Below, piece after piece: positions 13,875 through 53,093 of a stretch of DNA of 64,000 bases; position 1 is the stretch's first letter, and every line of letters begins with the position of its first letter. The notes below the pieces were generated by a model. The model was not told the DNA's origin. It did not search any database and worked only from the letters and a program-made list of their open reading frames with translations. The position numbers and the translations under genes were made by a program. The DNA is from Mucilaginibacter sp. UR6-11 (lineage in GTDB: Bacteria; Bacteroidota; Bacteroidia; Sphingobacteriales; Sphingobacteriaceae): positions 62,001-126,000 of the forward strand of contig NZ_JAJIWO010000011.1 of the NCBI RefSeq assembly GCF_020880695.1, written 5' to 3'.

Positions 13875-13899
13875 ACGGGCACGGATTATAAAAGGTTGC
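13875..13899 (-). promoter_or_regulatory. ECF-type promoter P2 (polysaccharide operon)
   Basis: On the minus strand GCAACC (13899-13894), a 16-bp spacer and CGT (13877-13875, extended CGTGTTC) form a -35/-10 pair identical in layout to the other copies in this window. Transcription would begin near 13868, giving a leader of about 40 nt. Confidence 0.75.
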
Positions 13900-14007
13900 C
13901 TATCCGTATAAAAATTACAATTGAAATTCGTAAGTGCCTGTGTTTAAACATTAATTGTTTTAATGGGCCTTGTTTTCAATTATTTTAAACTAAATTTAAA
14001 TTGCGGG

Positions 14008-14032
14008 GCAACCTTTAGGCTGCAATCAACGT
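14008..14032 (+). promoter_or_regulatory. ECF-type promoter P1 (autoregulation of the sigma operon)
   Basis: GCAACC (14008-14013), 16-bp spacer and CGT (14030-14032, extended CGTGATG), 52 bp before the ECF sigma start codon. The GCAACCTTT arm is the exact inverted counterpart of the one in P2, so the two divergent promoters share nine bases. An ECF gene preceded by the motif it reads is the classical sign of autoregulation. Confidence 0.78.
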
Positions 14033-14084
14033 GATGCATATAAACACGGGATAATATCACTTTAGCAACTATTTTATAACCCAT

Positions 14085-14723
14085 ATGGGCGAAGAAGAGT
14101 TACATCAATTGATCGACGGCTGTATGAAACAGGACAGGAAATGCCAGAAAATGCTGTATAAAGCATTTTACGGTTTTTCTATGGCCATATGTTTGCGTTA
14201 TGCCGGCGACCGTGATGAAGCTGCTGAAGTGATGAACCAGGGCTTTTTTAAGGTTTTTACCAAGATAGAATCGTACGACACTACCCGCCCGTTTAAGGCC
14301 TGGCTGGGCAGAATAATGATGAATGTATCAATTGATTATTACCGTGCCAATCTTAAAATGGCATATGCCGAAGATCTTGACCAGGCCGAGCACCTGTATG
14401 ATGCCAGCATAGCTACAGACAATAATTTAAATTATAATGATCTGTTGGCTATGGTGCAAAAGCTGCCACAGGGGTACAGAACCGTTTTTAACCTGTTTGC
14501 TATTGACGGCTACTCGCACGAAGAAATTGCCGAGATGCTGAACATTAACATAGGCACGTCAAAATCAAATCTGTTTAAGGCCAGGCAAAAATTAAAGCAA
14601 ATGATACAGGATGCTGACTCATCCGGTAATTATATAAATGGAGTGAGTTTTACACCGGTAGTTGCCATGAACGCATCTGTTATTACGCCGGTGTTCTATA
14701 ACGATAAAGGTATTAGAGAATGA
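14085..14723 (+). CDS. ECF (group 4) RNA polymerase sigma factor
   Basis: A 212-residue sigma-70 family protein reduced to regions 2 and 4. Region 2 runs from about residue 20 (MLYKAFYGFSMAICLRYAGD) through the RPFKAWLGRIMMNVSIDYYR segment typical of Bacteroidota ECFs; region 4 (about 125-180) holds the helix-turn-helix HEEIAEMLNINIGTSKSNL. About 35 residues follow region 4, a tail longer than in minimal ECFs and of unknown role. Its stop overlaps the next start (ATGA), so sigma and membrane protein are coupled. Promoter P1 indicates autoregulation, and the same motif occurs ahead of six other units in the window. The activating signal is not evident. Confidence 0.93.
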   Translation: MGEEELHQLIDGCMKQDRKCQKMLYKAFYGFSMAICLRYAGDRDEAAEVMNQGFFKVFTKIESYDTTRPFKAWLGRIMMNVSIDYYRANLKMAYAEDLDQAEHLYDASIATDNNLNYNDLLAMVQKLPQGYRTVFNLFAIDGYSHEEIAEMLNINIGTSKSNLFKARQKLKQMIQDADSSGNYINGVSFTPVVAMNASVITPVFYNDKGIRE

Positions 14724-15997
14724 AAAAGGAAAAGGGCATAGATGACATCTTTAAGCACGGCCTCGGGGACCCGGTTGATGAAACCGCATTCAGGGAAAGT
14801 GATTGGGATGGACTGGAAAATATGCTCGATGAGCGTAAGGGGAAAGGGAAGATTTTTTGGCTGCCCATTTTAGGCAGCGTCGCCGCAGTGTTGTTGGCGT
14901 TTTTTGGCTTGTGGATGTTTAGGCCACAGGCAACACCAACAAAACACAATACAGAAATGGTTGCCACTAAAACTATAAAAAGCAAATCATCTGTTGCTTA
15001 TGTTCCACAGTCACGGCAGCATCCGGCAGTTAACCAGCCGTCGCAAAATGGTAATGCACCAGTTTCTAAATCAATAAGTACAACGGATGATGGGAAAATA
15101 GTTACACAACCGGGTAGATCATCGTATTTAGCCGGAAATTTAAATAAAAGGAAACGCGGTGTGGCAGATACGGCTCCACAAACCGCAGGGAATTACGGGA
15201 TATCGGCTGCCGCCAAAAAAGGCCGTGATGCAGCAGGGCCTAACACCACTCTGGCCGCCATAAGTACAGGGGTTGTTACAATAGATAATGGTTTGCAGGT
15301 GCCGGCCATTACCACAACTGATATTTTACCGAAAAGGGGTTTTGATGCATTAGCAGCCTCGAAGCCCGTAAGCAAAAAAATAGGTACTTCGGCATTTCGT
15401 CCGCAATTTGCTTTAAGTGTACTGGCCGCTTCTGAGTTAAATGGGGTCGGTTCATTCCAATCCACAAGCAGCGGCACTAATTTAGGGCTGATGTTTTCAG
15501 TGGGGGTAAAGAAGTTTACCCTAAGCACCGGCGCAAATTACTCTACCAAACCATATACATTACCGTTTGATCAGTATCATACTTCTTACCAGTTTAAAAA
15601 TACCCCCCAGTATGTAACCGCCGATTGTCGGGTTTTGGATATCCCGATAAATATCGGCTACCAGTTATACAACAAATCGCGCAACAAGATAACCGTCGGC
15701 ACCGGCATTTCATCATACATCATGATGCATGAAAGTTATACTTATGATTATGGCAATACATCAACGTTATACGGGCCGTCGTATTACGCAGTAAAAAACA
15801 AGGGTAAATATATATTCAGTATTATGAACCTGCAGGCAAGTTATGAGCGCCAGATAAATTCAAAAGTGGGGATAAGTTTACAGCCTTATCTTAAAGTGCC
15901 ATTATCAAATATAGGCTACAGCCAGGTTAAGGTACAAACCTTTGGGGTAGCTGTAGGGCTTAACTGGAACATAAATTCGTTAATAAAACCTAAGTAA
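14720..15997 (+). CDS. Membrane-anchored protein with C-terminal outer-membrane-type beta-barrel domain (candidate anti-sigma factor)
   Basis: A 425-residue protein with no signal peptide. Residues 1-44 are charged and presumably cytosolic (containing WDGLENMLDERK), 45-67 form one hydrophobic segment, 68-225 are a low-complexity Thr/Ser/Ala/Pro linker, and 227-425 have alternating hydrophobic/aromatic strands resembling an outer membrane beta-barrel (porin/PorT-like) domain. Position directly behind the ECF gene with a 4-bp overlap, plus the short cytosolic segment and single TM helix, fits an anti-sigma factor. Recognised zinc-finger or FecR-like domains are absent. The C-terminal part could instead fold as a soluble periplasmic beta domain. 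Role inferred from context only. Confidence 0.6.
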   Translation: MKKEKGIDDIFKHGLGDPVDETAFRESDWDGLENMLDERKGKGKIFWLPILGSVAAVLLAFFGLWMFRPQATPTKHNTEMVATKTIKSKSSVAYVPQSRQHPAVNQPSQNGNAPVSKSISTTDDGKIVTQPGRSSYLAGNLNKRKRGVADTAPQTAGNYGISAAAKKGRDAAGPNTTLAAISTGVVTIDNGLQVPAITTTDILPKRGFDALAASKPVSKKIGTSAFRPQFALSVLAASELNGVGSFQSTSSGTNLGLMFSVGVKKFTLSTGANYSTKPYTLPFDQYHTSYQFKNTPQYVTADCRVLDIPINIGYQLYNKSRNKITVGTGISSYIMMHESYTYDYGNTSTLYGPSYYAVKNKGKYIFSIMNLQASYERQINSKVGISLQPYLKVPLSNIGYSQVKVQTFGVAVGLNWNINSLIKPK

Positions 15998-16000
15998 AAC

Positions 16001-16546
16001 ATGAAACATATCAGTATTATTTTACTCGCCTGGCTAAGCATCATGAACCAGACGGGGCAGGGACTTTATGCTTGTAAAAACGCTCAGATCAGTCTTTTTT
16101 CGAGCGCACCCATAGAGGATATCGCCGCTAAAACATCCTCAGGCACATCGGTTTATAATTCCGCCACCGGAGATTTGATTTTTAGCGTGGCGATAAACAC
16201 TTTTAAGTTCCCCAAGGCGCTTATGCAGGAACATTTTAACAGTGATTACCTGGAAAGCGACAAATACCCACGGGCTACTTTTAAAGGTAAAATACAGGAA
16301 CATCCAGATCTGACCAATGATGGGAACTATCCCATAACCGTAACCGGCGAGCTGGATGTACATAATGTAAAGCAAACCCGCACCATACCTGCTACGCTTA
16401 CGGTAGCGGGTGGAATTATCACCATGAAAGCAGAGTTTACGGTAAAATGCGTCGACCATCATATTGATATACCGAGGTTGGTATTTCACAACATTGCAGA
16501 GAGTATTAAAATTAATGTCACTGCCACTTATACGGCAGCCAAATAA
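16001..16546 (+). CDS. YceI family periplasmic protein
   Basis: A 181-residue secreted protein: an N-terminal signal peptide (about 1-24), then the YceI lipocalin-like barrel. The family pattern is seen in FKFPKALMQEHFNSDYLES, then KYPRATFKGKI, then the YPITVTGELDVHNVKQTR segment. YceI proteins bind long polyisoprenoid or amphiphilic ligands such as quinones in the periplasm. It begins 3 bp after the candidate anti-sigma gene and so belongs to the ECF operon. With the downstream DUF5777 and Rieske genes it forms a module that I would expect to handle a lipid-soluble redox or isoprenoid compound. Confidence 0.9.
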   Translation: MKHISIILLAWLSIMNQTGQGLYACKNAQISLFSSAPIEDIAAKTSSGTSVYNSATGDLIFSVAINTFKFPKALMQEHFNSDYLESDKYPRATFKGKIQEHPDLTNDGNYPITVTGELDVHNVKQTRTIPATLTVAGGIITMKAEFTVKCVDHHIDIPRLVFHNIAESIKINVTATYTAAK

Positions 16547-16575
16547 ATAATAAACACAACACAATTATCACAACA

Positions 16576-17490
16576 ATGAAAAAACACATCGCACTATTAG
16601 CCTTGCTGGCAGTAACAATGGGAGCAAGAGCGCAGCAAAAATCAGCGGCAGATTCTTTAATGAACGCTATGAATGCAAACGAAAAACCGGTACCGGTCAC
16701 TATATTTAAATCAAGCCGGTTAGTATTGGCCCAAACTACCGAGACGGTTAAAAAGAACGAGCTAAACTTCCAGATCATTCACCGCTTTGGCGACATCGCC
16801 GGCAGCAACGGCGGCGGCCAAACCGCATTTGGTATTGACCGGGTTAACGATGTTTTCTTTGGATTTGAATACGGGGTTAGCGATAATTTTAACATTGATC
16901 TGGGCCGCAGCACTATTGGCCAATTGGTGCAGTTAGAGGCAAAATGGGCAGTGATGCATCAAACATCTGATAATGCTTCGCCATTTGCAGTAACCCTGGT
17001 TGGCGAAGCCGGGGCAAAGCCTTATCAAACAGCAACCTTTCCTACATTTAGCAGCCGGTTGTCTTATTTAGGGCAGGTTATCATTGCGCGTAAGTTTTCG
17101 TCTGATATTTCTTTGCAGGTATCGCCAACTTATGTGCGTGATAATACACCGTTCCCGCTATTGCCGGGCAACGAGCAATCTTTTTTTGCGATGCAGGCTT
17201 CGGCACGCATTAAATTAACCAATCACTCCGGTTTGATATTTGATTACGCCCATCCCTTTTCAAATTTCAGGAAAAACACCGACACTTTTGAAGACCCGAT
17301 AGGCTTTGGCTACGAGGTTGAAACAGGTGGTCACGTTTTTACAGTAAATATCACCAATACTAACTCGGTATCTGAAATGAATATGCTAAGCAACTCGCAG
17401 CAGCGTTTTTCAAAAGGTCAATACCGCATAGGTTTTACTATATCCAGAATGTTTGATTTTAACCCAAAGGTTAAAAAAGAGAAATACTAA
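16576..17490 (+). CDS. DUF5777-like outer membrane beta-barrel protein
   Basis: A 304-residue protein with a clear signal peptide (MKKHIALLALLAVTMGARAQ). The mature part is rich in alternating strands with conserved-looking NELNFQIIHRFGDI and GIDRVNDVFFGFEYGVSDNF segments, the pattern I associate with DUF5777 barrels, which commonly accompany YceI and Rieske or cytochrome genes in Bacteroidota. The final strand ends close to the C-terminus, as expected for an outer membrane barrel. It follows yceI by 29 bp and precedes the Rieske gene by 29 bp. Function is unknown; a role with its operon partners is inferred. Confidence 0.75.
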   Translation: MKKHIALLALLAVTMGARAQQKSAADSLMNAMNANEKPVPVTIFKSSRLVLAQTTETVKKNELNFQIIHRFGDIAGSNGGGQTAFGIDRVNDVFFGFEYGVSDNFNIDLGRSTIGQLVQLEAKWAVMHQTSDNASPFAVTLVGEAGAKPYQTATFPTFSSRLSYLGQVIIARKFSSDISLQVSPTYVRDNTPFPLLPGNEQSFFAMQASARIKLTNHSGLIFDYAHPFSNFRKNTDTFEDPIGFGYEVETGGHVFTVNITNTNSVSEMNMLSNSQQRFSKGQYRIGFTISRMFDFNPKVKKEKY

Positions 17491-17519
17491 TAGTTATCCA
17501 ACAAAAGAGCGAAAAGATT

Positions 17520-17960
17520 ATGGAACGTGACGAATTTTTATCGAAACTGGGCATAGGCGCCCTTGCCGCCTGTATGGGCTGCAGCCTGATAGCCTGCAGC
17601 AAAAGTGGTGATGCAAATCCTTCAGGCGGCAATAATACCACAACCCCGCCTGTGGGTACAACATTTTCTATCGACCTGAATTCGACACTTACTTCGGTGG
17701 GCGACTCGAAAGTAAGCAATGGAATTATACTGGTAAGAATTGCCGCCGGTAATGCCGCTAGCTCATTTACAGCCGTACAGGTAGCTTGTACCCATGAAGG
17801 CACCGCTATTAATTATAACAATAACCAGGGCCTGTTTATTTGCCCGCTGCATGGCAGTGAGTTTAGCAAGAGCGGCGCGTTGATACAGGGCCCGGCAACC
17901 ACATCATTAAAGCAATATACGGTTGCAGTTACCGGCAGTACTTTAACGGTGACCGTATAA
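17520..17960 (+). CDS. Exported Rieske [2Fe-2S] protein
   Basis: A 146-residue protein with one Rieske domain. The two cluster-binding motifs are CTHEG (about residues 91-95) and CPLHGS (about 110-115), giving the required two Cys and two His. The N-terminus MERDEFLSKLGIGALAA is hydrophobic and followed by an SLIAC lipobox-like site near C26, so it is probably a lipoprotein anchored in the inner or outer membrane. It is the last gene of the ECF operon and presumably transfers electrons in the periplasm, perhaps with the YceI-bound ligand. It is not part of a bc1-type gene set here. Confidence 0.88.
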   Translation: MERDEFLSKLGIGALAACMGCSLIACSKSGDANPSGGNNTTTPPVGTTFSIDLNSTLTSVGDSKVSNGIILVRIAAGNAASSFTAVQVACTHEGTAINYNNNQGLFICPLHGSEFSKSGALIQGPATTSLKQYTVAVTGSTLTVTV

Positions 17961-17963
17961 CAA

Positions 17964-18599: not shown

Positions 18600-18670
18600 A
18601 AAGCTACAATAGCTTAAGGGCGCTATTTGTTTATTAGTGAGGATATTTTTAACGCTATCAAAAGAATTGG

Positions 18671-19939: not shown

Positions 19940-19945
19940 CACTTT

Positions 19946-20962: not shown

Positions 20963-20965
20963 GCC

Positions 20966-37547: not shown

Positions 37548-37572
37548 GCAACGCATAGTAATTTTTATCCGT
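37548..37572 (+). promoter_or_regulatory. ECF-type promoter P7 (ABC flippase operon; one mismatch)
   Basis: GCAACG (37548-37553), 16-bp spacer, CGT (37570-37572, extended CGTAATG). It differs from the other six copies only in the last -35 base, keeps the exact spacing, and ends 16 bp before the candidate TTG start at 37588. Confidence 0.6.
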
Positions 37573-41472: not shown

Positions 41473-41497
41473 GCAACCCGCAACAAACAATCCCCGT
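41473..41497 (+). promoter_or_regulatory. ECF-type promoter P3
   Basis: GCAACC (41473-41478), 16-bp spacer, CGT (41495-41497, extended CGTATTT), 42 bp before the ATG at 41539. Confidence 0.7.
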
Positions 41498-42464: not shown

Positions 42465-43412
42465 CTAAAAAATATCAATATCCGCAAAAGTAAACTTGAT
42501 ATTTGAAGTTGGCAAACCCTCCTCCAAATTTTTAAAGCCGGTTGTATAGGATGCGGTGGGCTGGTAATATTGGGCAAACAAAGTGTGCAGGCCCGTTTGG
42601 GGGCTTGCCTGGAAATGGATTTGGCTAATCCCTAATTTACGGGCAAATGCCCGGAGTTTTTTCAGGGTTGGTCCAAAACCGTCCGTCATATCCTCTATGT
42701 CGCCTATATGCAGCCCGTTTTTCAATTTTATCCAGAATAAAGATCCGTTTATCTGAACCACATAGGTGGGCGAATAGCTTTTATACCTGAGGTAATCGTC
42801 ATCACGAAAAACCCCGTTAAATCCATCGGCTAAAACAGAGTTTGCAATACCGCGCCGCGGTTGCAGGCAGGGTTTTAATACCCACCTCTGGTAACGGCGG
42901 TATCCCGGCCGCAGGAAGGGGAACCTGCGGGCAATCCTTTCTAAATTAATAACACGCCCCACCGGGATCATGAAGCGGTCCATAGTCCCGGTGGTATGCC
43001 AGTTTAATTTATTCATCAAACCCGGTAGCGAATTTTGATTGGGGAACCCAAAAACCAGGCGGATCCCCGCGTCTTTACACAATGCGTAGGTTTGATTGGC
43101 CAGTTCTGTAAACAGGCCCATGTTTCTATAGTCGGGATGCGTCATCGTATCGGCCGATTGGGCCGCTAAAATGGTGTGGCCATCATACCAGAGCAGCGTA
43201 GGGATTACCCCGTAGTAGGCTATTGGCCGGTATAGTTGGTTATAGGCGATAAAGCCGATATATTGTGCGCCGGTATAAGCAGTATCGTATTTTTTTTGAA
43301 AGAAATCCGCCGCCTGGCTGCGTTTATATACTGCCTGGTATAACGAAGCCAGGTGGGTTATATTAAATACGCTTAACCGCTTAATTGTGTATGCTTTTTG
43401 CGTGCTAGTCAT
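42465..43412 (-). CDS. GNAT-like N-acyltransferase
   Basis: A 315-residue protein. The central part (about 80-140) has the GNAT acyl-CoA-binding strand-helix: SADTMTHPDYRNMGLFTELA, with RNMGLF as a degenerate Q/RxxGxG/A loop, followed by GIRLVFGFPNQNSL. Both flanks are longer than in simple GNATs, as in sugar or lipid N-acyltransferases of polysaccharide loci. It is the last gene of the P4-driven operon, overlapping the deacetylase gene by 8 bp. A deacetylase next to an acyltransferase suggests replacement of one N-acyl group on a sugar by another; this is inference. Confidence 0.72.
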   Translation of the reverse strand: MTSTQKAYTIKRLSVFNITHLASLYQAVYKRSQAADFFQKKYDTAYTGAQYIGFIAYNQLYRPIAYYGVIPTLLWYDGHTILAAQSADTMTHPDYRNMGLFTELANQTYALCKDAGIRLVFGFPNQNSLPGLMNKLNWHTTGTMDRFMIPVGRVINLERIARRFPFLRPGYRRYQRWVLKPCLQPRRGIANSVLADGFNGVFRDDDYLRYKSYSPTYVVQINGSLFWIKLKNGLHIGDIEDMTDGFGPTLKKLRAFARKLGISQIHFQASPQTGLHTLFAQYYQPTASYTTGFKNLEEGLPTSNIKFTFADIDIF

Positions 43413-44412
43413 ATTTACAGGTTATGGTTGCGTAAAGCTGATTAACGGGCGATATAAACGGATTAACAGTAAAACGTTCGCGCATAGTATTATCCAAAGC
43501 ATCTGTTGCCGCATAAAAATCCATCGCCAGTAATTGGTTATATCCCGCTTCTTTGGCCAGGCTTATTACCTGCGGGTTATAGCTGCCGTACGGAAAGGCG
43601 AGGCTGGTTACCGGTTTTGCTGTCAGCTTTTCCAAATATTGCTTTACCTGCAACAGCTCACTAAAAGCATCGCCGGGGCTTATTTTAGCCAGGTCATTAT
43701 GGTAATAGCCATGCGCGCCTATCCGCGCAAACGGCGAGGCCGCCAGCTCTTTGATTTGGCCCGCCGTCATTTGCAGCCAATAGTCTTTAAGCTGCTCCTC
43801 ATTTTTAAAAGGTACCAGCGGATATAGCTGTTCCATCAGCTCTGCCTTTTCTGTAAATCCCGTATTGCGCAGTTTTTCTTTAAGTGCGGCTTGATCTTTA
43901 GCCGACAGATAGTGATCGTACCGGCCCTTGGTATAGCGCTCGTTTTTAAAGGTTATTTGCCGCGGGCCGTATTTACTAACGACGCCTAAAAAGTCGTTCC
44001 ATAAAATGTCGTAATTTTCATTGGTTATGCCGGTGATAAAAAATGTGGCGGGTATTTGATATTGCTCCAGTAACGGCAAAACATAGTGATGATTATTGGC
44101 AAAGCCATCGTCAAAAGTGAGGCAGATATTAAACTGGTCATTGCTAAAATTACCGGCATAAAAATCATCCAGCGGGATAACGTTGCAATGCTTTTTATAA
44201 AGCTGCAAATGCCGCTCAAACATTCGGGCGGTTAAAAAAATAGGGTTAAAACGGGTATGGTCTTCTTTACAAATACCATGATAGATGAGGATGCGGCTAC
44301 CCCGTGCATTTTTATAAAAAGACTTATCCAGGCCGGTAAAATACTTGGCATCACGCATCAACCCGCGAAAACCGCGGGCTACTTTGGAGCGTATTTTTGA
44401 ATAGATGTCCAT
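43405..44412 (-). CDS. Polysaccharide deacetylase family protein (CE4/NodB)
   Basis: A 335-residue enzyme with the NodB motifs: catalytic and metal-binding aspartates in TFDDG (D101, D102), the metal histidines in HGYYH (H234, H238) and FPYG (273-276). The domain is interrupted by an insertion of about 90 residues between motifs 1 and 2. No signal peptide or clear transmembrane segment is present, so it may act in the cytosol on a lipid-linked sugar or nucleotide sugar rather than on secreted polysaccharide. It lies 6 bp after the amidohydrolase gene and overlaps the GNAT gene by 8 bp. Confidence 0.85.
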   Translation of the reverse strand: MDIYSKIRSKVARGFRGLMRDAKYFTGLDKSFYKNARGSRILIYHGICKEDHTRFNPIFLTARMFERHLQLYKKHCNVIPLDDFYAGNFSNDQFNICLTFDDGFANNHHYVLPLLEQYQIPATFFITGITNENYDILWNDFLGVVSKYGPRQITFKNERYTKGRYDHYLSAKDQAALKEKLRNTGFTEKAELMEQLYPLVPFKNEEQLKDYWLQMTAGQIKELAASPFARIGAHGYYHNDLAKISPGDAFSELLQVKQYLEKLTAKPVTSLAFPYGSYNPQVISLAKEAGYNQLLAMDFYAATDALDNTMRERFTVNPFISPVNQLYATITCKYD

Positions 44413-44418
44413 AGGTGG

Positions 44419-45546
44419 TTAGCTGGCTGTTACCGGGAAAACCGCTTCGGGATAATATTCTTTTATATTGGCCATTAAGCCAGGCAGATCGCCCTGCACA
44501 TATTTGCAGGCGCCGTTGATATAGATCTTACTGAACCGGCTCAGATCAAGCTGGCCCAGCTGATCCAATAAACTGTCATCAAATAACCTGATCTGCTCTT
44601 CATGCACCACCAGCAAGATGTCTGCCGGGTCGGTGGCAAAAAAAACATCGAGGGACGATCCTTCACTCTTCCTTTTAGCTACTACGATGGCTGGCCGGTT
44701 GCCGCCGCTGGTGTACCGCCAGGCTGCCCCTTCGGGATGAAGCGAGCGGTACAATTCCGGGTCGGTTAACATTTTTGTTTTGCGCGCCAGCCTGATATGG
44801 TTCCAGATGTTCCAGCTGCCGGTGAGGGTGGAGTCTGTGCCGAATAAAATGGTAGTATGTTTCTTTAAATCATCAGCCGGCGCTGTTTTATCCAGCAAAA
44901 AATAATTTGACTCCGGGCACCATACCAATGCTTCAAACTTTTTGGCCTGTGCGCCGGTCATGGCAACCCCATGTACGCCTATCAGTTTTTTTTTAAGCAG
45001 GTTCCAGTTAATGAGCCGGTCTATCTCGGTACCCGAAACTTCGTCGCTGCCTTCACCTACGTGTATCACTACCGGCAGCTTTCTTTTAAGTGGATTGTTG
45101 AGCCTGACCTTCCACAGTTTTTCAAACCCTACGGAGTGGATGCTGTGGCATTGGGCTATATTAATAGGCGCGTTATTTATAGCCAGCGGCTCGCCATGAT
45201 TAACTACCGTAGTAACGCCGCAAAGCAAATTTTTAAATATGCCCCAGCTAACGCGCAGGGCCAGCGGTATTTTTAACACCGCCGCTATTTCGTTTTGATA
45301 ATTGGCATGCAGATGATTGCCCCATTCGGTATAGTTATTATAAATTTTGTCGCCCAATTGCGGAAACAGGTTAAAATCAAGATGATCATGTGAATTAACG
45401 AGGCCCGGAAAAGCCAGGGCATTATCAAAAGTTAATTGAAGGGCGTCTGCCGGGGCATTGCTGCCCGGGGCAACAATCTGCCCGTTTTTAAGCTGGATGT
45501 TAACAGGTCCGGTGCCGGTAATCGTATTAACATTATTTAATATCAT
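44419..45546 (-). CDS. Amidohydrolase superfamily metal-dependent hydrolase
   Basis: A 375-residue TIM-barrel hydrolase of the deaminase-like branch (chlorohydrolase/guanine or SAH deaminase type). Visible metal ligands are SHDH (H53, H55), IHVGEG (H162), VHG (H192) and FGTDST (D238), all at the positions expected for a mononuclear centre. The substrate is unknown; candidates are deamination of a modified nucleoside or opening of a cyclic amide. It overlaps the upstream methyltransferase by 14 bp, so the two are coupled. An amidohydrolase is unusual in a glycan locus and argues for a small-molecule building block. Confidence 0.8.
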   Translation of the reverse strand: MILNNVNTITGTGPVNIQLKNGQIVAPGSNAPADALQLTFDNALAFPGLVNSHDHLDFNLFPQLGDKIYNNYTEWGNHLHANYQNEIAAVLKIPLALRVSWGIFKNLLCGVTTVVNHGEPLAINNAPINIAQCHSIHSVGFEKLWKVRLNNPLKRKLPVVIHVGEGSDEVSGTEIDRLINWNLLKKKLIGVHGVAMTGAQAKKFEALVWCPESNYFLLDKTAPADDLKKHTTILFGTDSTLTGSWNIWNHIRLARKTKMLTDPELYRSLHPEGAAWRYTSGGNRPAIVVAKRKSEGSSLDVFFATDPADILLVVHEEQIRLFDDSLLDQLGQLDLSRFSKIYINGACKYVQGDLPGLMANIKEYYPEAVFPVTAS

Positions 45547-46324
45547 GGCTTCGTTTTAAATGAATGCCGTAGATAATGCGGGCATCTTTAAATCTCTCAT
45601 AAACCGGCAACGCGTTTTTTGCCTCATAATAATGCTTTACCGATTCATCTATTTTTCGCTCCAGCTTATTAACTATCCTGAAACCGTGCTTAAAAAGGAT
45701 GCTTTCAATATCATATACATAATGCACAAAGTTTTGTATGGCTATGCTGCTGTGTTTATGCTCAAACGTGCGCCTGCCGCCAAATGCCAGGGCGTTTGGG
45801 TGGAAATCGGTAATAATGATATCACCGTTATACTTCAATATCCGGCTCCAGGCGTGCAGTGCCTCGTCAATATTTTCAATATGCGCAACCGTAAGGGTTG
45901 ACACAATAACATCATACGTGGCTGTGCCGGTATCTTTAAAAAGGTTATCGGTTATCTGGTTAGTTTTTGCATTGGGGAACTTTTGCTCCAGACGCCTTAA
46001 CATCCCCGCCGAGACATCAAAGCCGGTTAGGCCTGCCGGCTTGTTATTAAAAAGTTTGGGCCAGTGCCTGCCGGTACCGCAGCCTATATCAGCAACCTGT
46101 TTGCCGGTAATGTCAGTTTCGGCCAATAGTTGGGTAAACACTTCTTCGTCCAGGTCCAGCATCAGGTTGCCGGGTTGTACATCATAACTTTTTGCCCACA
46201 GGTCGTACGCCTCAACCGATTTTTTTTCTTTCACGGTGTTAAAAAACAGGGCGTGCTGCACAGTTTTTTTTAAAGCTGATAACAAGCTGTTAACCGGGCT
46301 GACAGTTGCTGTAACCGTATTCAT
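45533..46324 (-). CDS. Class I SAM-dependent methyltransferase
   Basis: A 263-residue Rossmann methyltransferase. SAM-binding motif I is VADIGCGTG (78-85-region), followed by TGFDVSAGML, TYDVIVSTLTVAHI (motif IV/post II) and a C-terminal domain of the UbiE/BioC/Methyltransf_11 kind. It is the first gene of the P4 operon; the ATG at 46324 is 35 bp from the P4 -10 element. The acceptor is unknown. Similar stand-alone methyltransferases occur in the opposite arm of the locus, giving three in total. Confidence 0.85.
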   Translation of the reverse strand: MNTVTATVSPVNSLLSALKKTVQHALFFNTVKEKKSVEAYDLWAKSYDVQPGNLMLDLDEEVFTQLLAETDITGKQVADIGCGTGRHWPKLFNNKPAGLTGFDVSAGMLRRLEQKFPNAKTNQITDNLFKDTGTATYDVIVSTLTVAHIENIDEALHAWSRILKYNGDIIITDFHPNALAFGGRRTFEHKHSSIAIQNFVHYVYDIESILFKHGFRIVNKLERKIDESVKHYYEAKNALPVYERFKDARIIYGIHLKRSHDIK

Positions 46325-46358: not shown

Positions 46359-46383
46359 ACGGCAGGCTATTTATAAAGGTTGC
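46359..46383 (-). promoter_or_regulatory. ECF-type promoter P4 (methyltransferase/amidohydrolase operon)
   Basis: On the minus strand GCAACC (46383-46378), 16-bp spacer and CGT (46361-46359, extended CGTAATT). The -35 continues as GCAACCTTT, as in P1, P2 and P5. P4 and P5 are back to back with 25 bp between their -35 elements. Confidence 0.75.
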
Positions 46384-46408: not shown

Positions 46409-46433
46409 GCAACCTTTGGTTTGCGGGGGGCGT
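46409..46433 (+). promoter_or_regulatory. ECF-type promoter P5 (radical SAM operon)
   Basis: GCAACC (46409-46414), 16-bp spacer, CGT (46431-46433, extended CGTAACT). It lies 93 bp upstream of the ATG at 46527 and, if real, excludes the earlier in-frame start at 46380, which would be upstream of transcription. Confidence 0.75.
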
Positions 46434-46526: not shown

Positions 46527-48029
46527 ATGAATAAGATCTTACTGTTTAACCCCAAAAGCGCCATTGCCAAGTATAGGATCCCGAATTCTATTTTAAACAT
46601 AGCGGCGTCTGTTGAAGGGAAGTACGAGTGGGTGATTGTCGACGGAAATTGCGAGGCTGATCCGCAGAAAAAAATAGAAGCCTATTTAAATACCGGCGAA
46701 TTTAAATACCTGGGGTTTACCGTGATGCCGGGCCCGCAGTTAAGGCAGGCCATTACCGCCGCTAAAGCTATCAAACAAAAATATCCGTTTACAAAAATGA
46801 TCTGGGGCGGCTATTTCCCGTCTAACCAGCCCGAGTCGGTATTATATTCAAGTTATGTTGATTTTATTATCAACGGACCCGGCGATCATGCTTTCCCGGC
46901 ATTAATAACCGCATTGGAAAACGGCGAGCCTTATGAGTTTATCAAAAACCTGATTTACCGGGGCGCTAACGGGCAGATAGTTAAAACCGCCAAGGAGGAT
47001 CTGATAGACCAGGACTCATTACCCCCGTTGCCTTATAATAAGCTGAACGAATTTTACCCGATCCCTAAATTTTTAGGCAAAACTTACCTGGGCGAGAAAA
47101 CGCTGGCCTATCATTCAAGCATCGGCTGCCCGTTTACCTGTTCGTTTTGCGCGGTGGTGCCTATTTATGAGGCGCGCTGGAAAGCTAAATCGGCACAAAC
47201 AGTTTATAATGACGTTAAATATATTAAGGATAAATGGGGCGCTACCGCGATAGAGTTTCATGACAATAATTTCTTTGTATCAGAAAAACGCGCGGTTGAG
47301 TTTTCCAGGCTGATAGAGCCCGAGAACATGACCTGGTGGGGCATGGCCCGCATTGATACCATGAGCAAGTTTAAAGATTCATCGTTGGAGGCTATTCGCC
47401 GCGGCGGCTGTAAAATTATATTTTTTGGCGCCGAAAGCGGTAACAATGCCATCCTTGAACAAATGGATAAAGGCGGCACCCAAACCGGCGACCAGATACT
47501 GGAATTTGCCGAACGTTTAAAGAAGTTTGACATCATCCCCGAATATTCATTTGTGCTGGGCACGCCTGCGCCCACACCGGAGCAGGTAATGGCGCAGATT
47601 GATTTTGAGATAGACTTTATTAAGAAGGTAAAAGCTGTCAATCCGCAAACAGAGATCATTATTTATACCTACAGCCCGGTGCCTACCGAAGGGTCAGAGA
47701 TGTATAAGCAGGTACTGGCAAGCGGCTTTAAATTTCCGCAGACTTTAGAGGACTGGATAAGCCCGGCCTGGGAGAATTTCGACCTGCGCAAAAATCCGCT
47801 CACGCCCTGGCTAACTGCCGGGATGATTGATAAGATCAGGGATTTTGAAACGGTACTGAACGGGGTATATCCAACTACAACCGATATCAGGCTGAGCGCT
47901 TTAAAACGCGCGGCCATAAAAGCGGTATCAACCCTTCGGTACAAAATAAATGTATATCAATACCCGTACGAGATCAAACTATTGCAAAAGGTCTGGAAAT
48001 ATCGCCAGCCCGAGATACAAGGATTTTAA
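46527..48029 (+). CDS. B12-binding-domain radical SAM protein (first of the operon)
   Basis: A 500-residue protein. Residues 1-135 form a cobalamin-binding-like Rossmann domain starting KILLFNP; the usual DxHxxG is DGNCEA at 39-44, so the axial histidine is replaced by Asn. The radical SAM core begins at about 195 with CPFTCSFC (C201, C205, C208), and FFGAESGNNAILEQMDKG is the SAM-binding segment. Members methylate or rearrange unactivated carbons, or make C-C/C-S bonds. An upstream ATG at 46482 would add 15 atypical residues; 46527 matches the family. It is the lead gene of a five-gene operon under P5. Confidence 0.88.
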   Translation: MNKILLFNPKSAIAKYRIPNSILNIAASVEGKYEWVIVDGNCEADPQKKIEAYLNTGEFKYLGFTVMPGPQLRQAITAAKAIKQKYPFTKMIWGGYFPSNQPESVLYSSYVDFIINGPGDHAFPALITALENGEPYEFIKNLIYRGANGQIVKTAKEDLIDQDSLPPLPYNKLNEFYPIPKFLGKTYLGEKTLAYHSSIGCPFTCSFCAVVPIYEARWKAKSAQTVYNDVKYIKDKWGATAIEFHDNNFFVSEKRAVEFSRLIEPENMTWWGMARIDTMSKFKDSSLEAIRRGGCKIIFFGAESGNNAILEQMDKGGTQTGDQILEFAERLKKFDIIPEYSFVLGTPAPTPEQVMAQIDFEIDFIKKVKAVNPQTEIIIYTYSPVPTEGSEMYKQVLASGFKFPQTLEDWISPAWENFDLRKNPLTPWLTAGMIDKIRDFETVLNGVYPTTTDIRLSALKRAAIKAVSTLRYKINVYQYPYEIKLLQKVWKYRQPEIQGF

Positions 48030-48041
48030 ATAACTTGGACG

Positions 48042-48776
48042 TTGGATATAAGTATTCAAAATAGAGCAATAAGGCGTTCAAAACCCCGCAAGCCGGATTT
48101 TGAAGAGCTTTATGTTGCCGTGCGCGACTACGAAAAAAAAGTCTACACCGATGCAGAGCTCCAGGTATTGCCCGATTTTAGTATCCACTCTGAAGAATGG
48201 GAAATAAGAAAACGCTCAAGCGGCAGGTTGCTGTCTTACCTGGGTAAAAAGCAAAGGTTTTTAAGGATTCTTGAAGTAGGCTGCGGCAATGGCTGGCTCT
48301 CGGCAAAAATGGCTGGTCTGCCGCAAACTTATGTGGCCGGCCTGGATATTAATCTTGCCGAAATTAACCAGGCAAACCGCGTGTTTAAAAAACCGAACCT
48401 CGAATTTATATACGACAGCTTTACCGACAATACTTTTGATACCGACAAATTTGATATAGTTGTGTTTGCGGCGTCACTGCAATATTTTCCGTCGGTTGTG
48501 GCGGTGTTGCAGCAGGTCGAACGGATTTTAAGCCCCCACGGCGAGATCCATGTTATTGACACCCCTTTTTATGCCCCGGAGGATGCCGCGCGAGCGGCCG
48601 ACCGCTGTCGCAGCTATTATAAAGATATGGGTATCCCCGAAATGGCTGATCATTATTTTCATCACTCGGTAAGCGAATTTTGGGGTTTTAATTACCGGGT
48701 GCTATTTAACCCAACCAGCCTGTTTAACCGGTTGTTTAAAAAAGATCCGTTTTACTGGATCGTTATTAAAAAATAA
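48042..48776 (+). CDS. Class I SAM-dependent methyltransferase
   Basis: A 244-residue methyltransferase with motif I EVGCGNGWLS (about residues 78-88), GLDINLAEINQA, and FDIVVFAASLQYF. The TTG at 48042 is taken as start, 12 bp after the upstream stop; no ATG lies close enough to preserve the N-terminal region. It is followed after 3 bp by the SPASM-like radical SAM gene. The C-terminal part (about 180-244) is rich in aromatics and may bind a lipid or glycan acceptor. Target unknown. Confidence 0.82.
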   Translation: MDISIQNRAIRRSKPRKPDFEELYVAVRDYEKKVYTDAELQVLPDFSIHSEEWEIRKRSSGRLLSYLGKKQRFLRILEVGCGNGWLSAKMAGLPQTYVAGLDINLAEINQANRVFKKPNLEFIYDSFTDNTFDTDKFDIVVFAASLQYFPSVVAVLQQVERILSPHGEIHVIDTPFYAPEDAARAADRCRSYYKDMGIPEMADHYFHHSVSEFWGFNYRVLFNPTSLFNRLFKKDPFYWIVIKK

Positions 48777-48779
48777 ACA

Positions 48780-49817
48780 ATGCAATCCCTCATACATACC
48801 TACAAACGCTACCGCACGTTACAAACGCACCGGATATCAGCCCTGCCCGTAGTTATCCTGATGCCGCACAGCGCCTGCAACTGCCGTTGCGTGATGTGCG
48901 ATATCTGGAAAGACAATAAAAACCTGAAGCAGCTAACTACAGAGGACGTTACCGGTTTGTTGATCTCTCTGAAAAAATTGGGAACCGGGCAGGTCGTGAT
49001 GTCGGGCGGAGAGGCGTTATTGAACAATAATTTTTTTGAGCTTTGTAAGATCCTTAAAAACGAGGGTATAAAAGTTAGTTTGTTAACAACCGGCCTATCC
49101 ATAAAAAATAATGCCATACAGCTGTTAAGATGGGTTGATGACCTGGTGGTATCACTGGACGGCGACGAGCCTACGCATGATGCGATACGTAATATCCCCA
49201 GTGCTTTTGCCAAATTAAAAGAGGGTGTAGCACATCTAAAATTATTAAACCCAAACTATCGTATAACCGCGCGTACGGTTATCCACCGGCTTAATTTTAG
49301 AAATTGGCCAGCTATAATTGCAGCTGCCAAAGCGATGGGGATTGACCAGGTAAGTTTTTTGCCTGCGGATATCAGCAGTCATGCTTTTAACCGCCAAACC
49401 GCCTGGAGCGAACCCCGGCAACATGAAATACTGCTAAGCGAACAGGAACTGCCCGAGCTACAGGAGGTGGTTAATACCGTACTTAGCCAAACTGCCGATT
49501 TTACCGATAAATTTATTGCAGAGTCTGCCGCTAAAATTCAGGATATCTATCATTATTATACAGCGTTTTATGGTTTAAATCCGTTTCCTTATAAAAAATG
49601 CAACGCGCCCTGGGTGTCAGCCGTAATTGAGGCTGACGGGACCGTAAGACCCTGTTTTTTTCACGACAGCATTGGTAATATCCGCGATAGCCCGCTGGCC
49701 GATCTGTTAAATACCGAAGCGGCCATAGCTTTTAGAAGAACGATGGATATGAGCACCAATGCTACCTGCGTAAAGTGCGTGTGCAGCTTAAATCTGTCGC
49801 CACTGGCAACATTATAA
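48780..49817 (+). CDS. Radical SAM protein with SPASM-like C-terminal cysteines
   Basis: A 345-residue radical SAM enzyme with the canonical CNCRCVMC core (cluster cysteines C33, C37, C40), a VMSGGEALLN motif 2 and a C-terminal region with several cysteines (KKCNAPW ... RPCFFHD ... TCVKCVCSLN) of the SPASM/twitch type, which bind auxiliary Fe-S clusters. Such enzymes modify peptides, or act in small-molecule and sulfatase maturation. No candidate precursor peptide is seen nearby. It is third in the operon, 3 bp after the methyltransferase and 6 bp before the second B12-type radical SAM gene. Confidence 0.85.
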   Translation: MQSLIHTYKRYRTLQTHRISALPVVILMPHSACNCRCVMCDIWKDNKNLKQLTTEDVTGLLISLKKLGTGQVVMSGGEALLNNNFFELCKILKNEGIKVSLLTTGLSIKNNAIQLLRWVDDLVVSLDGDEPTHDAIRNIPSAFAKLKEGVAHLKLLNPNYRITARTVIHRLNFRNWPAIIAAAKAMGIDQVSFLPADISSHAFNRQTAWSEPRQHEILLSEQELPELQEVVNTVLSQTADFTDKFIAESAAKIQDIYHYYTAFYGLNPFPYKKCNAPWVSAVIEADGTVRPCFFHDSIGNIRDSPLADLLNTEAAIAFRRTMDMSTNATCVKCVCSLNLSPLATL

Positions 49818-49823
49818 CAGGAT

Positions 49824-51284
49824 ATGAATACGATACTTTTTTCACATTCCTACTTTTTAAGGTTCGACCCTAAACAATGGTCGATAGGCCAGCCCTATGC
49901 GCCATTGGGCACGCTTTATGCCGCGGCGTTAATGCGTGAAAACGGGTACAATGTCAGCTTGTTCGATACCATGTTTGTTGCCGGCCCGTCCGAAGTTGAG
50001 CCGGCCCTTGATCAGGCTAATCCTGATTTTTTTGTGATCTATGACGACGGGTTCAATTATCTCACTAAAATGTGCCTTACCAATATGCGCGAGGCGGCTT
50101 TCAGTATGTGCAAAATGGCGAAGGCAAGGGGGTGCACTGTAATAGTATCCAGTTCAGACTCCACCGACCGATACGAAGAATACCTGAAAGAAGGGGCCGA
50201 TTTTGTATTGATAGGCGAAGCCGAACAAACCCTGCTGGAGCTGGTAGATCATATCCGGGCGGGCGAAAGTAATACAGATCTTATCCCCGGATTAGCTTAT
50301 ATGAAAGACGGCCTGGCATTGAAGACCCGGCCACGCCCGGTGTTAAAGGACCTGGACAGTCTGCCCCTGCCGGCATGGGACCTGGTGGACCTGGAACCCT
50401 ATCGCGACAGCTGGTTAAAAAATGCGGGCTATTTTTCAATAAACATGGGTACTACCCGCGGTTGCCCGTTTAAGTGTAACTGGTGCGCCAAGCCTATTTA
50501 TGGCAACCGCTACAACTCGCGCAGCCCGCAAAATGTGATAAAGGAACTGAAACTTTTAAAGGAGCGTTACCCTATTGATCATATCTGGTTCTGCGATGAT
50601 ATTTTTGGTTTAAAACCGGGGTGGGTGCTGGAGTTTGCGCAACTGGTTCAGCAGGAAAACCTGCGTACCCGGTTTAAAATACAATCGCGGGCAGACTTGC
50701 TGGTTGACGAAGAGCTGGTTAACGCGCTGGCCGCCGCAGGCTGTGAAAATGTCTGGATAGGCGCCGAAAGCGGATCGCAGAAGATATTAGATGCTATGGA
50801 TAAAGGCACCACCGTGGGGCAGATTCATATCGCTACAAAAGCTATGAAAAAGGCAGGTATTAAGCCGTCGTTTTTTATCCAGTTTGGTTACCCGGGCGAG
50901 GATAAGACAGACATTGCCAAAACCATAAAAATGATCAATGAACTGTTGCCGTTTGAGATTGGCATCTCGGTGTCGTATCCGTTACCGGGCACGGTTTTTT
51001 ATGACCGGGTAAAGGCTGATCTGAAGAAAAAAACCAACTGGACAGACTCGGACGAGATGGCCCTGATGTTTAACAACACCTTTGCGCCAACTTACTACAA
51101 GCAGCTGCACAGGTATGTACATCAAAACTACCATATGCACCTGGCAAAAAACAGCCTGCTTAAGCTGATTAAAAACCCGTTGGGCGCAAACGCCCAGAGT
51201 TTAAAAAAGGCGCTGTCGGTAATTTATTATAGCCCGGCAACCTATATAGAGCGGTTAAGACTAAATCAGCTGGAAAAAGCGTGA
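49824..51284 (+). CDS. B12-binding-domain radical SAM protein (second of the operon)
   Basis: A 486-residue protein. The N-terminal cobalamin-type domain begins near TLYAAALMRENGYNV, with FDTMFV where DxHxxG would be, so again no axial histidine. The radical SAM motif is CPFKCNWC (C214, C218, C221), followed by the WIGAESGSQKILDAMDKG SAM-binding stretch and FFIQFGYPGE. It is clearly related to the first gene of the operon, yet divergent in the N-terminal domain. The stop overlaps the following start by 1 bp. Its role, probably methyl or other carbon transfer, is inferred from family. Confidence 0.88.
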   Translation: MNTILFSHSYFLRFDPKQWSIGQPYAPLGTLYAAALMRENGYNVSLFDTMFVAGPSEVEPALDQANPDFFVIYDDGFNYLTKMCLTNMREAAFSMCKMAKARGCTVIVSSSDSTDRYEEYLKEGADFVLIGEAEQTLLELVDHIRAGESNTDLIPGLAYMKDGLALKTRPRPVLKDLDSLPLPAWDLVDLEPYRDSWLKNAGYFSINMGTTRGCPFKCNWCAKPIYGNRYNSRSPQNVIKELKLLKERYPIDHIWFCDDIFGLKPGWVLEFAQLVQQENLRTRFKIQSRADLLVDEELVNALAAAGCENVWIGAESGSQKILDAMDKGTTVGQIHIATKAMKKAGIKPSFFIQFGYPGEDKTDIAKTIKMINELLPFEIGISVSYPLPGTVFYDRVKADLKKKTNWTDSDEMALMFNNTFAPTYYKQLHRYVHQNYHMHLAKNSLLKLIKNPLGANAQSLKKALSVIYYSPATYIERLRLNQLEKA

Positions 51285-52105
51285 TGGAGGCTGTTGTAAA
51301 AAATATCAACGAGCGATATGCGGCAAAAGCGTTTTCTGCACAGTCGGGTATATTTGATGAAATTTATGCCGCCAATACCATCGTCAATTATAAACGCGAC
51401 CGGGTGCGGGCGCATGTATTACATTACCTGAAACCCAACGCTACTATATTGGAACTAAACAGCGGCACCGGCGAAGACGCCGCCTTTTTTGCCAGCCTTG
51501 GCCACCGGGTACATGCTACGGACATTGCCAAAGGCATGCAAAAAAAGCTGCGCGAAAAAGCGGCGAAGCACGGGCTTAATAACCTGATCTCGACCGAACT
51601 GCGTTCATTCACAGAACTTGCGCAGTTAAAAAACAAGGGCCCTTTTGATTGTGTTTTCTCCAACTTTGCGGGCCTTAACTGCACCGGCGAGCTGAACAGG
51701 GTTTTATTGTCATTACCCCCGCTGTTAAATGACGGCGGTATAGCCACCCTGGTTATTTTGCCGCGGTTTTGCTTATGGGAGTCGCTGTTGTTGTTTAAGG
51801 GGATGTTTAAAACCGCAACCCGCCGGTGGTTCAGCAAAAACGGGGTGAAGGCACATATAGAGGGCACGTATTTTACCTGCTGGTATTACAATCCGTCTGA
51901 TGTGATCAACACGTTAAAAGACTCGTTTGATGTACTGAGCGTGGAGGGGTTATGCACCGTAGTGCCACCGTCTTATATTGAGCATTTTGCCGAGAAGTAT
52001 CCCGCTGCCTATCGCCGGTTAAAAAAAATAGAGGAACGGGTTAGGTTTAGCTGGCCGTGGCGCTTTATCGGTGATTACTATATTATTTCTTTGCGGAAGA
52101 AATAA
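51284..52105 (+). CDS. Class I SAM-dependent methyltransferase
   Basis: A 273-residue methyltransferase with motif I ELNSGTGED (about 49-57), HATDIAKGMQ and DCVFSNFAGLNC. The first codon at 51281 is GTG followed immediately by ATG 51284; I use the ATG, which overlaps the preceding TGA by one base. It is the last gene of the P5 operon, 9 bp before the convergent nucleotidyltransferase. The C-terminal half has several Trp/Phe/Tyr-rich segments. Acceptor unknown. Confidence 0.82.
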   Translation: MEAVVKNINERYAAKAFSAQSGIFDEIYAANTIVNYKRDRVRAHVLHYLKPNATILELNSGTGEDAAFFASLGHRVHATDIAKGMQKKLREKAAKHGLNNLISTELRSFTELAQLKNKGPFDCVFSNFAGLNCTGELNRVLLSLPPLLNDGGIATLVILPRFCLWESLLLFKGMFKTATRRWFSKNGVKAHIEGTYFTCWYYNPSDVINTLKDSFDVLSVEGLCTVVPPSYIEHFAEKYPAAYRRLKKIEERVRFSWPWRFIGDYYIISLRKK

Positions 52106-52114
52106 TGATCCGGC

Positions 52115-53035
52115 CTAATTGGCCAGTAAATTTTCGGGCACTACCAATATCTGCGACATCTTGTTTTTATACTGCTCCAGCAGCCGCGCCTGGAAATTCC
52201 CCGGATCGGGTTTGGCGTAATGTTTGTCAGCATCCATGGCCATTATGGCGCCCTTCGAGTTTAGCTTTTTCTGCGCCGTTTTCTTGTTCCATCTGCCGGC
52301 GGTAATTTTCATCAGCCGGCTATCAATAGCATTACCAACCGGGTTGTTTAACAGCTTTTCAAACAATACCTTAAACAGCGTGGGCCTTAACGGCTTGGCA
52401 GATGATAAGCGCATGATTTTGTTGGGCAGGTATTCGCGGGTCCAGCTGTTGGCTGCGTAAAATTGCTCAATCACCGTATCGCCCTGCAGGGGGATAAGGG
52501 TAACCACCTCAATAGCGGTATAAATAGTTTTCTCTTTAATCTCCAGCTGTTCTTCATCAATATAATAATTCATGCAGAAATAGTCCTGCTTGCCTACCAA
52601 AAAAGTTAGCTTTTTAAAGGTATGCATTAAGGTGCGCGCTATCCATAAGCGGTTTTTCGCGGTGATGATAAACAGATCGATATCCGAGTTCTCATCCGCA
52701 AAATTTTTTGATAACGAGCCGGATATGGCAATGCCGCGTACATATGGGAACCGGATAAGCATATCCCCAACCCTGACGGCAATTTTAATCAGCTCGGCAG
52801 CTTTTTTATTACCGTTGTAGCGGCGGGCTATTAAAGAATAATCATTTTTAAGCGTATAGAAATTACTGAACTGGTAAACCGACCGGCTGGCAACCAGGCA
52901 TTTCAGCGCCAACTCAAAGTCCGGCTGATCATACCTGTTTTTCAGGAACAGGTAAATTTCACCGCTGGTTAGCGGATATTTGAAAATATCAAAATAGGCC
53001 AGTGTAGCTAATATGTTTTCTTTTGCCTCGTTCAC
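52115..53035 (-). CDS. Nucleotidyltransferase-fold protein
   Basis: The reading frame extends to TTG 53077, but promoter P6 covers 53069-53093, so I place the start at GTG 53035, giving 306 residues. An N-terminal winged-helix-like segment (KENILATLAYFDIFKYPLTS) precedes a nucleotidyltransferase core with GSLSKNFADENSDIDLFI (G-S ... D-x-D, metal-binding aspartates). Related proteins are uncharacterised; the fold transfers NMP groups to proteins, RNA or small molecules. It converges with the radical SAM operon (9-bp gap) and shares its ECF-type promoter. Confidence 0.7.
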   Translation of the reverse strand: MNEAKENILATLAYFDIFKYPLTSGEIYLFLKNRYDQPDFELALKCLVASRSVYQFSNFYTLKNDYSLIARRYNGNKKAAELIKIAVRVGDMLIRFPYVRGIAISGSLSKNFADENSDIDLFIITAKNRLWIARTLMHTFKKLTFLVGKQDYFCMNYYIDEEQLEIKEKTIYTAIEVVTLIPLQGDTVIEQFYAANSWTREYLPNKIMRLSSAKPLRPTLFKVLFEKLLNNPVGNAIDSRLMKITAGRWNKKTAQKKLNSKGAIMAMDADKHYAKPDPGNFQARLLEQYKNKMSQILVVPENLLAN

Positions 53036-53068
53036 TTTGGTAGGTTCTGCATCTTGATTATACTGATG

Positions 53069-53093
53069 ACGGAACAATACCGCAATAGGTTGC
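53069..53093 (-). promoter_or_regulatory. ECF-type promoter P6 (nucleotidyltransferase)
   Basis: On the minus strand GCAACC (53093-53088), 16-bp spacer and CGT (53071-53069, extended CGTCATC). The predicted transcription start near 53060 lies downstream of the longest possible start codon, so it decides the gene's 5' end. Confidence 0.7.

Follow-up and report, generated by a model that had tools for sequence, protein, structure and literature searches.

A stretch of 64,000 nucleotides from Mucilaginibacter sp. UR6-11 (the window, meant hereafter at its full length) carries a gene for an extracytoplasmic function (ECF) sigma factor at 14085..14723 and, ahead of this gene and of several polysaccharide and radical SAM genes, a recurring two-box sequence, GCAACC-N16-CGT. 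The question raised by the locus is whether one sigma factor governs all of these genes, as a first-pass annotation of the same DNA had predicted from the sites before the sigma operon, the polysaccharide genes and the radical SAM genes. Genome comparisons support that predicted regulon. We consider it highly probable that GCAACC-N16-CGT is the promoter of this ECF sigma factor, which would be held by a Dma-like anti-sigma factor and would control its own operon together with the glycan and radical SAM units. Because the motif is kept at the same places in dozens of related genomes of Mucilaginibacter, a genus of soil bacteria, the sigma operon, the surface-sugar set and the radical SAM set are very probably switched on together. 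Such a system would be ordinary in kind, an autoregulated ECF regulon, and is unusually well supported for a prediction made from sequence.

The promoter element in the window

Seven exact copies of GCAACC-N16-CGT are found in the window, compared to a mean of 0.56 in 100 shuffles (maximum 3, none reaching seven), in agreement with the earlier estimate of about 0.5 copies expected by chance. The first-pass annotation had listed six exact copies and one with a single mismatch, and all of these are present on the strands and at the positions it gave; a seventh exact site, 11564-11588 on the minus strand, had been overlooked, both in its total and where it states that CGT does not follow at the proper distance after the other GCAACC hexamers it had checked. 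Permitting one mismatch yields 23 window matches against 13.27 expected (shuffle maximum 22), which is a modest excess, and a mismatch-bearing match alone is therefore weak evidence. Across the 4.62-Mb genome (20 contigs) there are 45 exact matches, compared to 29 for a reversed control pattern, and since 30 of the 38 exact matches beyond the window fall within open reading frames (ORFs), the bare nine-base pattern is a poor predictor genome-wide. At the rate seen outside the window, the Poisson probability of seven sites in 64 kb is about 1.5e-6.

The motif has an AAC-containing -35 box, a CGT-type -10 box, fixed spacing and a copy before the sigma gene itself, as is characteristic of ECF promoters. 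Across eight window sites, the seven exact ones and the one-mismatch copy, the likely start codon lies 15-93 bp past the CGT; the range given earlier was 16-93 bp. The TTG start of the 53077 ORF falls inside the predicted promoter at 53069-53093, and GTG 53035 is the likelier start of this gene. A search for the TAnnTTTG box in the 200 bp before the eight window heads returned a single match, before the Wzy-like gene.

Pooling 183 exact sites gives the consensus (C)AGGCAACC-wTT-N13-CGT-nAT, or cAGGCAACC-wTT-N13-CGTnAT in its fuller form. As the pool holds exact sites only, its nine fixed bases are invariant by construction; the AT directly after CGT, which played no part in the choice of rows, carries 1.74 bits over the 71 rows of the genus set and 0.88 bits over the 13 rows of the family set, and the spacer and flank columns carry 0.4-0.6 bits each. 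A matrix trained on relatives only, with the window genome excluded, places seven predicted promoters at the top of the window: 11564..11588 (minus strand, exact, 26.7, the highest score), 46359..46383 (minus, exact, 26.0), 46409..46433 (plus, exact, 25.0), 14008..14032 (plus, exact, 24.8), 13875..13899 (minus, exact, 23.7), 53069..53093 (minus, exact, 23.1) and 37548..37572 (plus, one mismatch, 22.3). A weaker candidate, the exact site at 41473..41497 (plus), follows at 16.8. The next scores belong to two one-mismatch sites (15.6 and 15.4), and the reversed window reaches 14.0 at best.

Conservation at operon heads and before the sigma gene

Conservation upstream of orthologues, named by the first-pass annotation as a point on which its prediction would turn, was assessed in the 250 bp before each gene class in relatives' loci. 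Only classes with at least four rows were used, and rows were excluded if they had <40% identity, less than half the length, an alignment start past residue 25, a start <80 bases from the locus end or a duplicate upstream region. Loci L152-L171 had partly been picked for holding sites, and a recount was restricted to L232-L271, which were chosen by gene position only. In these position-chosen loci, an exact site precedes 134/176 genes of the seven head classes (163/176 with at most one mismatch) and 9/325 other genes; over all loci, the counts are 192/248 and 14/498. The sites are hence conserved at operon heads and seldom elsewhere. By class, exact sites stand before the nucleotidyltransferase gene in 36/36 relatives, the Wzy-like gene in 28/31, the methyltransferase gene in 37/46, the radical SAM gene in 35/48 (45/48 with at most one mismatch), the first family 2 glycosyltransferase (GT2) gene in 11/35 (34/35) and the ABC gene in 7/14 (14/14). 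Five of the nine non-head sites precede rSAM3, two the amidohydrolase gene and two the gene for a 305-aa protein; our reading of the seven before rSAM3 and the amidohydrolase gene is that they mark heads of rearranged units, as confirmed in L155 only. No spacers of 14, 15, 17 or 18 occur in the relatives' cluster loci, and no exact site on the opposite strand precedes the nucleotidyltransferase, Wzy-like and ABC genes there.

In six relatives (L152-L157), the sigma, glycan, nucleotidyltransferase, radical SAM and methyltransferase/amidohydrolase units adjoin one another in a single uninterrupted cluster, and sites recur at the corresponding positions, although individual sites or genes are absent in some. 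Examples are the radical SAM gene of L153 and L156, which has no exact site before it, and L155, where the first radical SAM gene is missing. In G011, a distance of about 460 kb on the same contig separates the radical SAM locus from the sigma gene, and the locus has retained its divergent pair of sites.

Of 149 same-genus genomes, counting the window genome, 134 have a match to the sigma gene itself with an E value no higher than 1e-50. Its site at 14008, GCAACCTTT-N13-CGTGAT, is exact in 38/38 relatives' loci, and an exact site precedes the sigma gene in 30/30 loci of the first-read set (again with our own) and in 72 of 80 titled loci (68 from Mucilaginibacter, nine from "Bacteroidetes bacterium" and one each from Sphingobacteriaceae, Dyadobacter and Solitalea). 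When 100 genomes were searched for GCAACCTTT-N13-CGT, 86 contained a match; among the matches listed (143 sites in 70 genomes, those of the window genome excluded), 58 sit 44-58 bp before the sigma gene, one in each of 58 of the 70 genomes, which supports the predicted autoregulation of the sigma factor. The matches to two sigma orthologues, L091 and L094, were each given with a single internal TGA.

In other genera of the family, 13 of 20 sigma loci have the exact site before the sigma gene. A relative of the predicted anti-sigma protein follows the sigma gene in all 20 of these loci, compared to 12 with YceI and DUF5777 neighbours and six with a Rieske neighbour, and therefore the sigma and anti-sigma genes are the constant part of the operon and YceI, DUF5777 and Rieske its frequent companions. 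In the Solitalea longa locus L351, YceI and DUF5777 precede the sigma gene, and GCAACC-N16-CGT is found at 6453, before the gene ahead of YceI.

The sigma and radical SAM genes also occur together. In genomes with completeness of 90% or more and contamination of 5% or less, the sigma gene accompanies the first radical SAM gene in 67/67 cases, and the radical SAM gene is absent from all 12 genomes without a sigma gene (P 1.6e-5, without correction for relatedness); three sigma-less genomes that do have it are 61-80% complete. Site counts follow the sigma gene as well: of the 100 genomes, the nine without a sigma gene hold 5 sites (control 2) and the 91 with one hold 182 (control 32). A sigma gene of 73% identity in Dyadobacter frigoris (L331) has a 17-bp-spacer site before it and lies beside a glycan operon, where exact sites precede the Wzy-like gene and also occur past the final glycan gene of that locus. 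The close relationship of both to their Mucilaginibacter counterparts suggests horizontal transfer of the sigma gene and the glycan operon together with their promoters. In the glycan cluster of a genome of another family (G455), an exact nine-base site (score <15) stands before the nucleotidyltransferase gene and a 15-bp-spacer site before the Wzy-like gene.

Predicted anti-sigma factor, mechanism and alternative explanations

The gene after the sigma gene (14720..15997, plus strand) encodes a 425-aa product without a Pfam or NCBIfam match. Its AlphaFold2 model, built from 44 sequences, has a mean predicted local distance difference test score (pLDDT) of 68.6 and contains helices at residues 6-14 and 26-38 (pLDDT about 50-60, with conserved residues), a helix at 48-66 that fits a membrane segment, a tether at about 71-213 (pLDDT <50 over most of it) and a C-terminal barrel with strands from 229 to 417 (mostly >90), for which Foldseek returned OmpA/NspA-type folds. 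From this model we predict that the gene encodes a dual membrane-spanning (Dma-like) anti-sigma factor. The membrane helix, the long disordered tether and the C-terminal beta-barrel of such proteins are all present in the model, the comparison being one of domain order and not of sequence with Dma1-3, and two short low-confidence helices with conserved residues lie where a putative N-terminal sigma-binding domain would be expected. Dma partners are ECF21 sigma factors encoded adjacent to them (PMC13088901), and the gene adjacent here encodes an ECF sigma factor.

We infer that this sigma factor reads the sites and that its neighbour is its anti-sigma factor. The Dma-like neighbour, which would extend from the cytoplasm across the inner membrane and, by a long tether, to an outer-membrane barrel, would keep the sigma factor inactive until a change at the outer membrane or the surface, presumably the signal, releases it. 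Once freed, the sigma factor would transcribe its own operon (sigma, anti-sigma, YceI, DUF5777 and Rieske), the glycan operons (13829 to 5480) and, in the 37.6-53.1 kb range, the units for ABC, methyltransferase/deacetylase, radical SAM and nucleotidyltransferase proteins, as well as a handful of genes elsewhere, including a few lipoprotein genes. The proteins of the glycan and radical SAM units may together make one surface glycan.

Several observations weigh against this interpretation. The exact site is lacking before the sigma gene in 8 of the 80 titled loci, where inspection by eye shows a 17-bp spacer in three, TGT in one and nothing recognisable in four (two second copies in their genome, one 64%-identical locus and one Solitalea locus with a different operon order). 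Likewise, 7 of the 20 other-genus loci lack the exact form: two have a 15-bp spacer, one has CCAACC, and the four of one genus, in which YceI and DUF5777 precede the sigma gene, have no site directly before it. Spacers of 15 or 17 are found in a few distant loci. In the clusters, the first GT2 gene has CGA at the -10 position in 19/35 relatives, the 41473 site is weak and the 305-aa gene behind it carries an exact site in only 3/9 relatives; 41473 is possibly a chance match. Two other-genus genomes with the radical SAM gene have one weak site in the cluster (16.2, G168) or none (G264). The sites that do not precede a sigma gene in sigma-bearing genomes (85 in 70 genomes, among the matches listed) include many inside genes, and a large share of the 182 sites counted above, about one per sigma-bearing genome, is the sigma gene's own. 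Moreover, the genomes share ancestry and the counts are not independent, and the anti-sigma model has low confidence in its tether and at its N-terminus. The earlier claim that the sigma factor drives nearly every unit from 37.6 to 53.1 kb is supported by conserved strong sites at most operon heads but is weakened by 41473 and by the minus-strand glycosyltransferase gene 40312-41409, which has no exact site in the window, nor in any of 21 relatives (2/21 with one mismatch).

A further complication is a paralogous ECF gene at C1:973412-973981 (40% identical), which is preceded in 30/30 loci (L369-L398) by GCAAC[CT]-N16-CATCT and so shares -35 box and spacer with the window sigma factor but has CAT at -10. 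Therefore, GCAACC alone cannot assign a gene, and it is the -10 box, together with the genome comparisons, on which the assignment to a single sigma factor depends; since the paralogues do not differ in -35 box or spacing, the -10 box is the likely discriminator between their promoters. With 28 sigma-like matches in the genome (the window sigma included), a good alignment between the C-terminal regions of the paralogue and the window sigma factor and a published discussion of overlapping ECF regulons as possible in Flavobacterium (PMC9723704), one could suppose that the sites are read by several ECF sigma factors and represent a shared promoter class, not one regulon. We regard this as unlikely. 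The window contains no GCAACC-N16-CAT site, and the upstream regions recovered for 17 of the 27 other sigma-like genes contain no GCAAC-N17-CGT (0/17, with one looser look-alike 138 bp upstream). Furthermore, the nine sigma-less genomes have few CGT sites, yet a relative of the paralogue is present in 5/5 of them searched (G021 at 53% identity).

An operator for a DNA-binding regulator would fit the conservation taken alone, but we consider it very improbable: the strand of the site matches the gene wherever no divergent neighbour confuses the picture, the sites of the clusters keep a constant spacing of 16, the boxes resemble those of ECF promoters and the site precedes the sigma gene in most genomes examined. 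Less probable still, and scarcely credible for the set as a whole, is chance or inherited similarity without function. About two thirds of the bare genome-wide matches may indeed be chance, to judge from the reversed control, and the window excess is small once one mismatch is permitted; against this stand the divergence of spacer and flanks alongside the retention of the unselected AT after CGT in the genus set, and the difference between operon heads and other genes in the position-chosen loci. For the seven strong sites, chance was rejected by shuffles, reversed patterns and the reversed window.

Beyond the sigma-factor promoter itself, we hold a wider scenario to be possible, at somewhat short of even likelihood. 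An ECF/Dma system older than the genus may have been extended in Mucilaginibacter by a mobile glycan and B12/radical SAM cluster that carries the promoter at nearly every operon head; its outer-membrane sensor would turn on a modified surface coat and secreted redox lipoproteins (Rieske, cupredoxin), and two paralogous sigma factors that share a -35 box and spacer would be kept apart by the -10 box.

No description of this regulon was recognised in the open-access literature searched. The closest known systems include the Dma systems of Bacteroides (PMC13088901), where the ECF gene is also directly followed by a gene for a protein with an N-terminal segment, a membrane helix, a disordered tether and a C-terminal barrel, as predicted here. 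Outputs differ, since vesiculation and changes in polysaccharide-utilisation loci are described there, in contrast to the glycan synthesis, radical SAM enzymes and lipoproteins predicted here; capsule genes also changed in that study and the authors ascribe this to phase variation (PMC13088901). The word "motif" is absent from the main text of that paper. In B. thetaiotaomicron, the ECF sigma factor BT0248 is likewise linked to capsular polysaccharide regulation, a link inferred there from expression modules (PMC12596196). The PorY-PorX-SigP system of Porphyromonas gingivalis similarly places an ECF sigma factor over a surface system in Bacteroidota but has a two-component input and type IX secretion as output, the likeness being one of description and not of sequence (PMC4800418), and type IX secretion genes are, unlike here, among the SM6 promoter targets in Flavobacterium psychrophilum (PMC9723704). 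For a Dma-type sigma system, whose Bacteroides counterparts are known from mutants, the present sites offer a promoter at the level of sequence, with a list of targets compared throughout one genus. A single switch, open to deletion or to being locked on, would connect a surface glycan with a radical SAM pathway, a practical route to both product and signal, and the paralogue differing at -10 provides a natural test of promoter discrimination by ECF sigma factors.

Predicted operons and distal targets

The sigma operon is read on the plus strand from the predicted promoter at 14008..14032, 52 bp before the sigma start. The 212-aa sigma factor contains Sigma70_r2 (PF04542) and Sigma70_r4_2 (PF08281), and the anti-sigma gene is followed by genes for a YceI-like protein (16001..16546, PF04264), a DUF5777 membrane beta-barrel protein (16576..17490, PF19089) and, as final gene of the predicted operon, a Rieske [2Fe-2S] protein (17520..17960, PF00355). 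Divergently, the site at 13875..13899 would serve the first glycan genes, encoding a GT2 (13032..13829, minus, by Pfam) and a polysaccharide flippase (Polysacc_synt, PF01943; 11562..13016, minus). The site at 11564..11588, a predicted internal promoter of the glycan cluster, shares bases with the 3' end of the flippase ORF, and 47 bp separate it from the gene 9861-11516 that it precedes. The remaining glycan operon (5480..11516, minus) encodes a 551-aa membrane protein, a GT2, two GT4 proteins (one with DUF1972) and a Wzy_C protein, according to Pfam; the 551-aa protein has no Pfam match and is a Wzy-like candidate by its sequence and position. Flippase, polymerase/ligase and glycosyltransferase domains (Polysacc_synt, Wzy_C, GT2, GT4) thus stand together as in Wzx/Wzy-type clusters.

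In the second half of the window, the predicted promoter with GCAACG at 37548..37572 lies 15 bp before the start of an ABC-exporter ORF, which is paired with a group-1 glycosyltransferase (37588..40336, plus, by Pfam), and the weaker candidate at 41473..41497 precedes the 305-aa protein (ORF 41539-42456, plus), which has no Pfam match. The divergent pair comprises 46359..46383, before an operon (42465..46324, minus) with Pfam matches to a methyltransferase, an amidohydrolase-like protein (under the Pfam cut-off), a polysaccharide deacetylase and a GNAT protein, and 46409..46433, which is 93 bp before ATG 46527 of the radical SAM operon (46527..52105, plus). The latter encodes, by Pfam, two B12-binding plus radical SAM proteins, one SPASM radical SAM protein and two methyltransferases, the B12-binding match in 49824-51284 being just under the Pfam cut-off. 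The site at 53069..53093 precedes a gene for a nucleotidyltransferase-domain protein (NTP_transf_2; 52115..53035, minus). Of the two one-mismatch sites that follow in score, 41698-41722 (minus, 15.4) lies 288 bp before gene 40312-41409 and 7849-7873 (minus, 15.6) lies 22 bp before gene 6702-7826, both in the right orientation and inside a neighbouring gene; with at most one mismatch they are poorly conserved, in 2/21 and 4/34 relatives, respectively.

Hundreds of equally good sites scattered over the genome, which would have spoken against the regulon, did not appear. Scoring of the window genome covered the sites from three pattern searches, in place of a full matrix scan, so that its target list is incomplete (two sites were left unscored), and six of these sites beyond the window score at least 20. 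They are associated with an SCO4226-like protein (L024, 24.2), the inside of a gene (L008, 22.4), an NHL-repeat protein with a lipoprotein-like start (L001, 22.2), a protein with a lipoprotein-like start (L366, 21.6), a small lipoprotein-like protein (L045, 20.7) and, 14 bp downstream of a site with GCAACG, an ORF with a TTG start (L104, 20.1).

Of the relatives' 85 listed non-sigma sites, 20 lie near sigma genes or in cluster pairs, and 60 distal ones (L172-L231) were examined. A gene start lies within 170 bp of 28 of these 60, which are not inside a gene; nine of the 28 score >20 and the other 19 score <18 and may be chance. The nine high-scoring sites comprise five before cupredoxin lipoprotein genes, one before a small lipoprotein family also found in the window genome and one each before the genes for a Lipoprotein_15 protein, a likely LysR-type regulator (named from its sequence) and the cluster's own methyltransferase. 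Since cupredoxin lipoprotein targets occur along with the Rieske protein of the sigma operon, the comparison suggests that the regulon has an extracytoplasmic redox component. In the five cupredoxin-like lipoprotein genes, which come from five genomes (L183, L211, L219, L223 and L229), the site lies 31-40 bp upstream, and the domain was confirmed in two of them.

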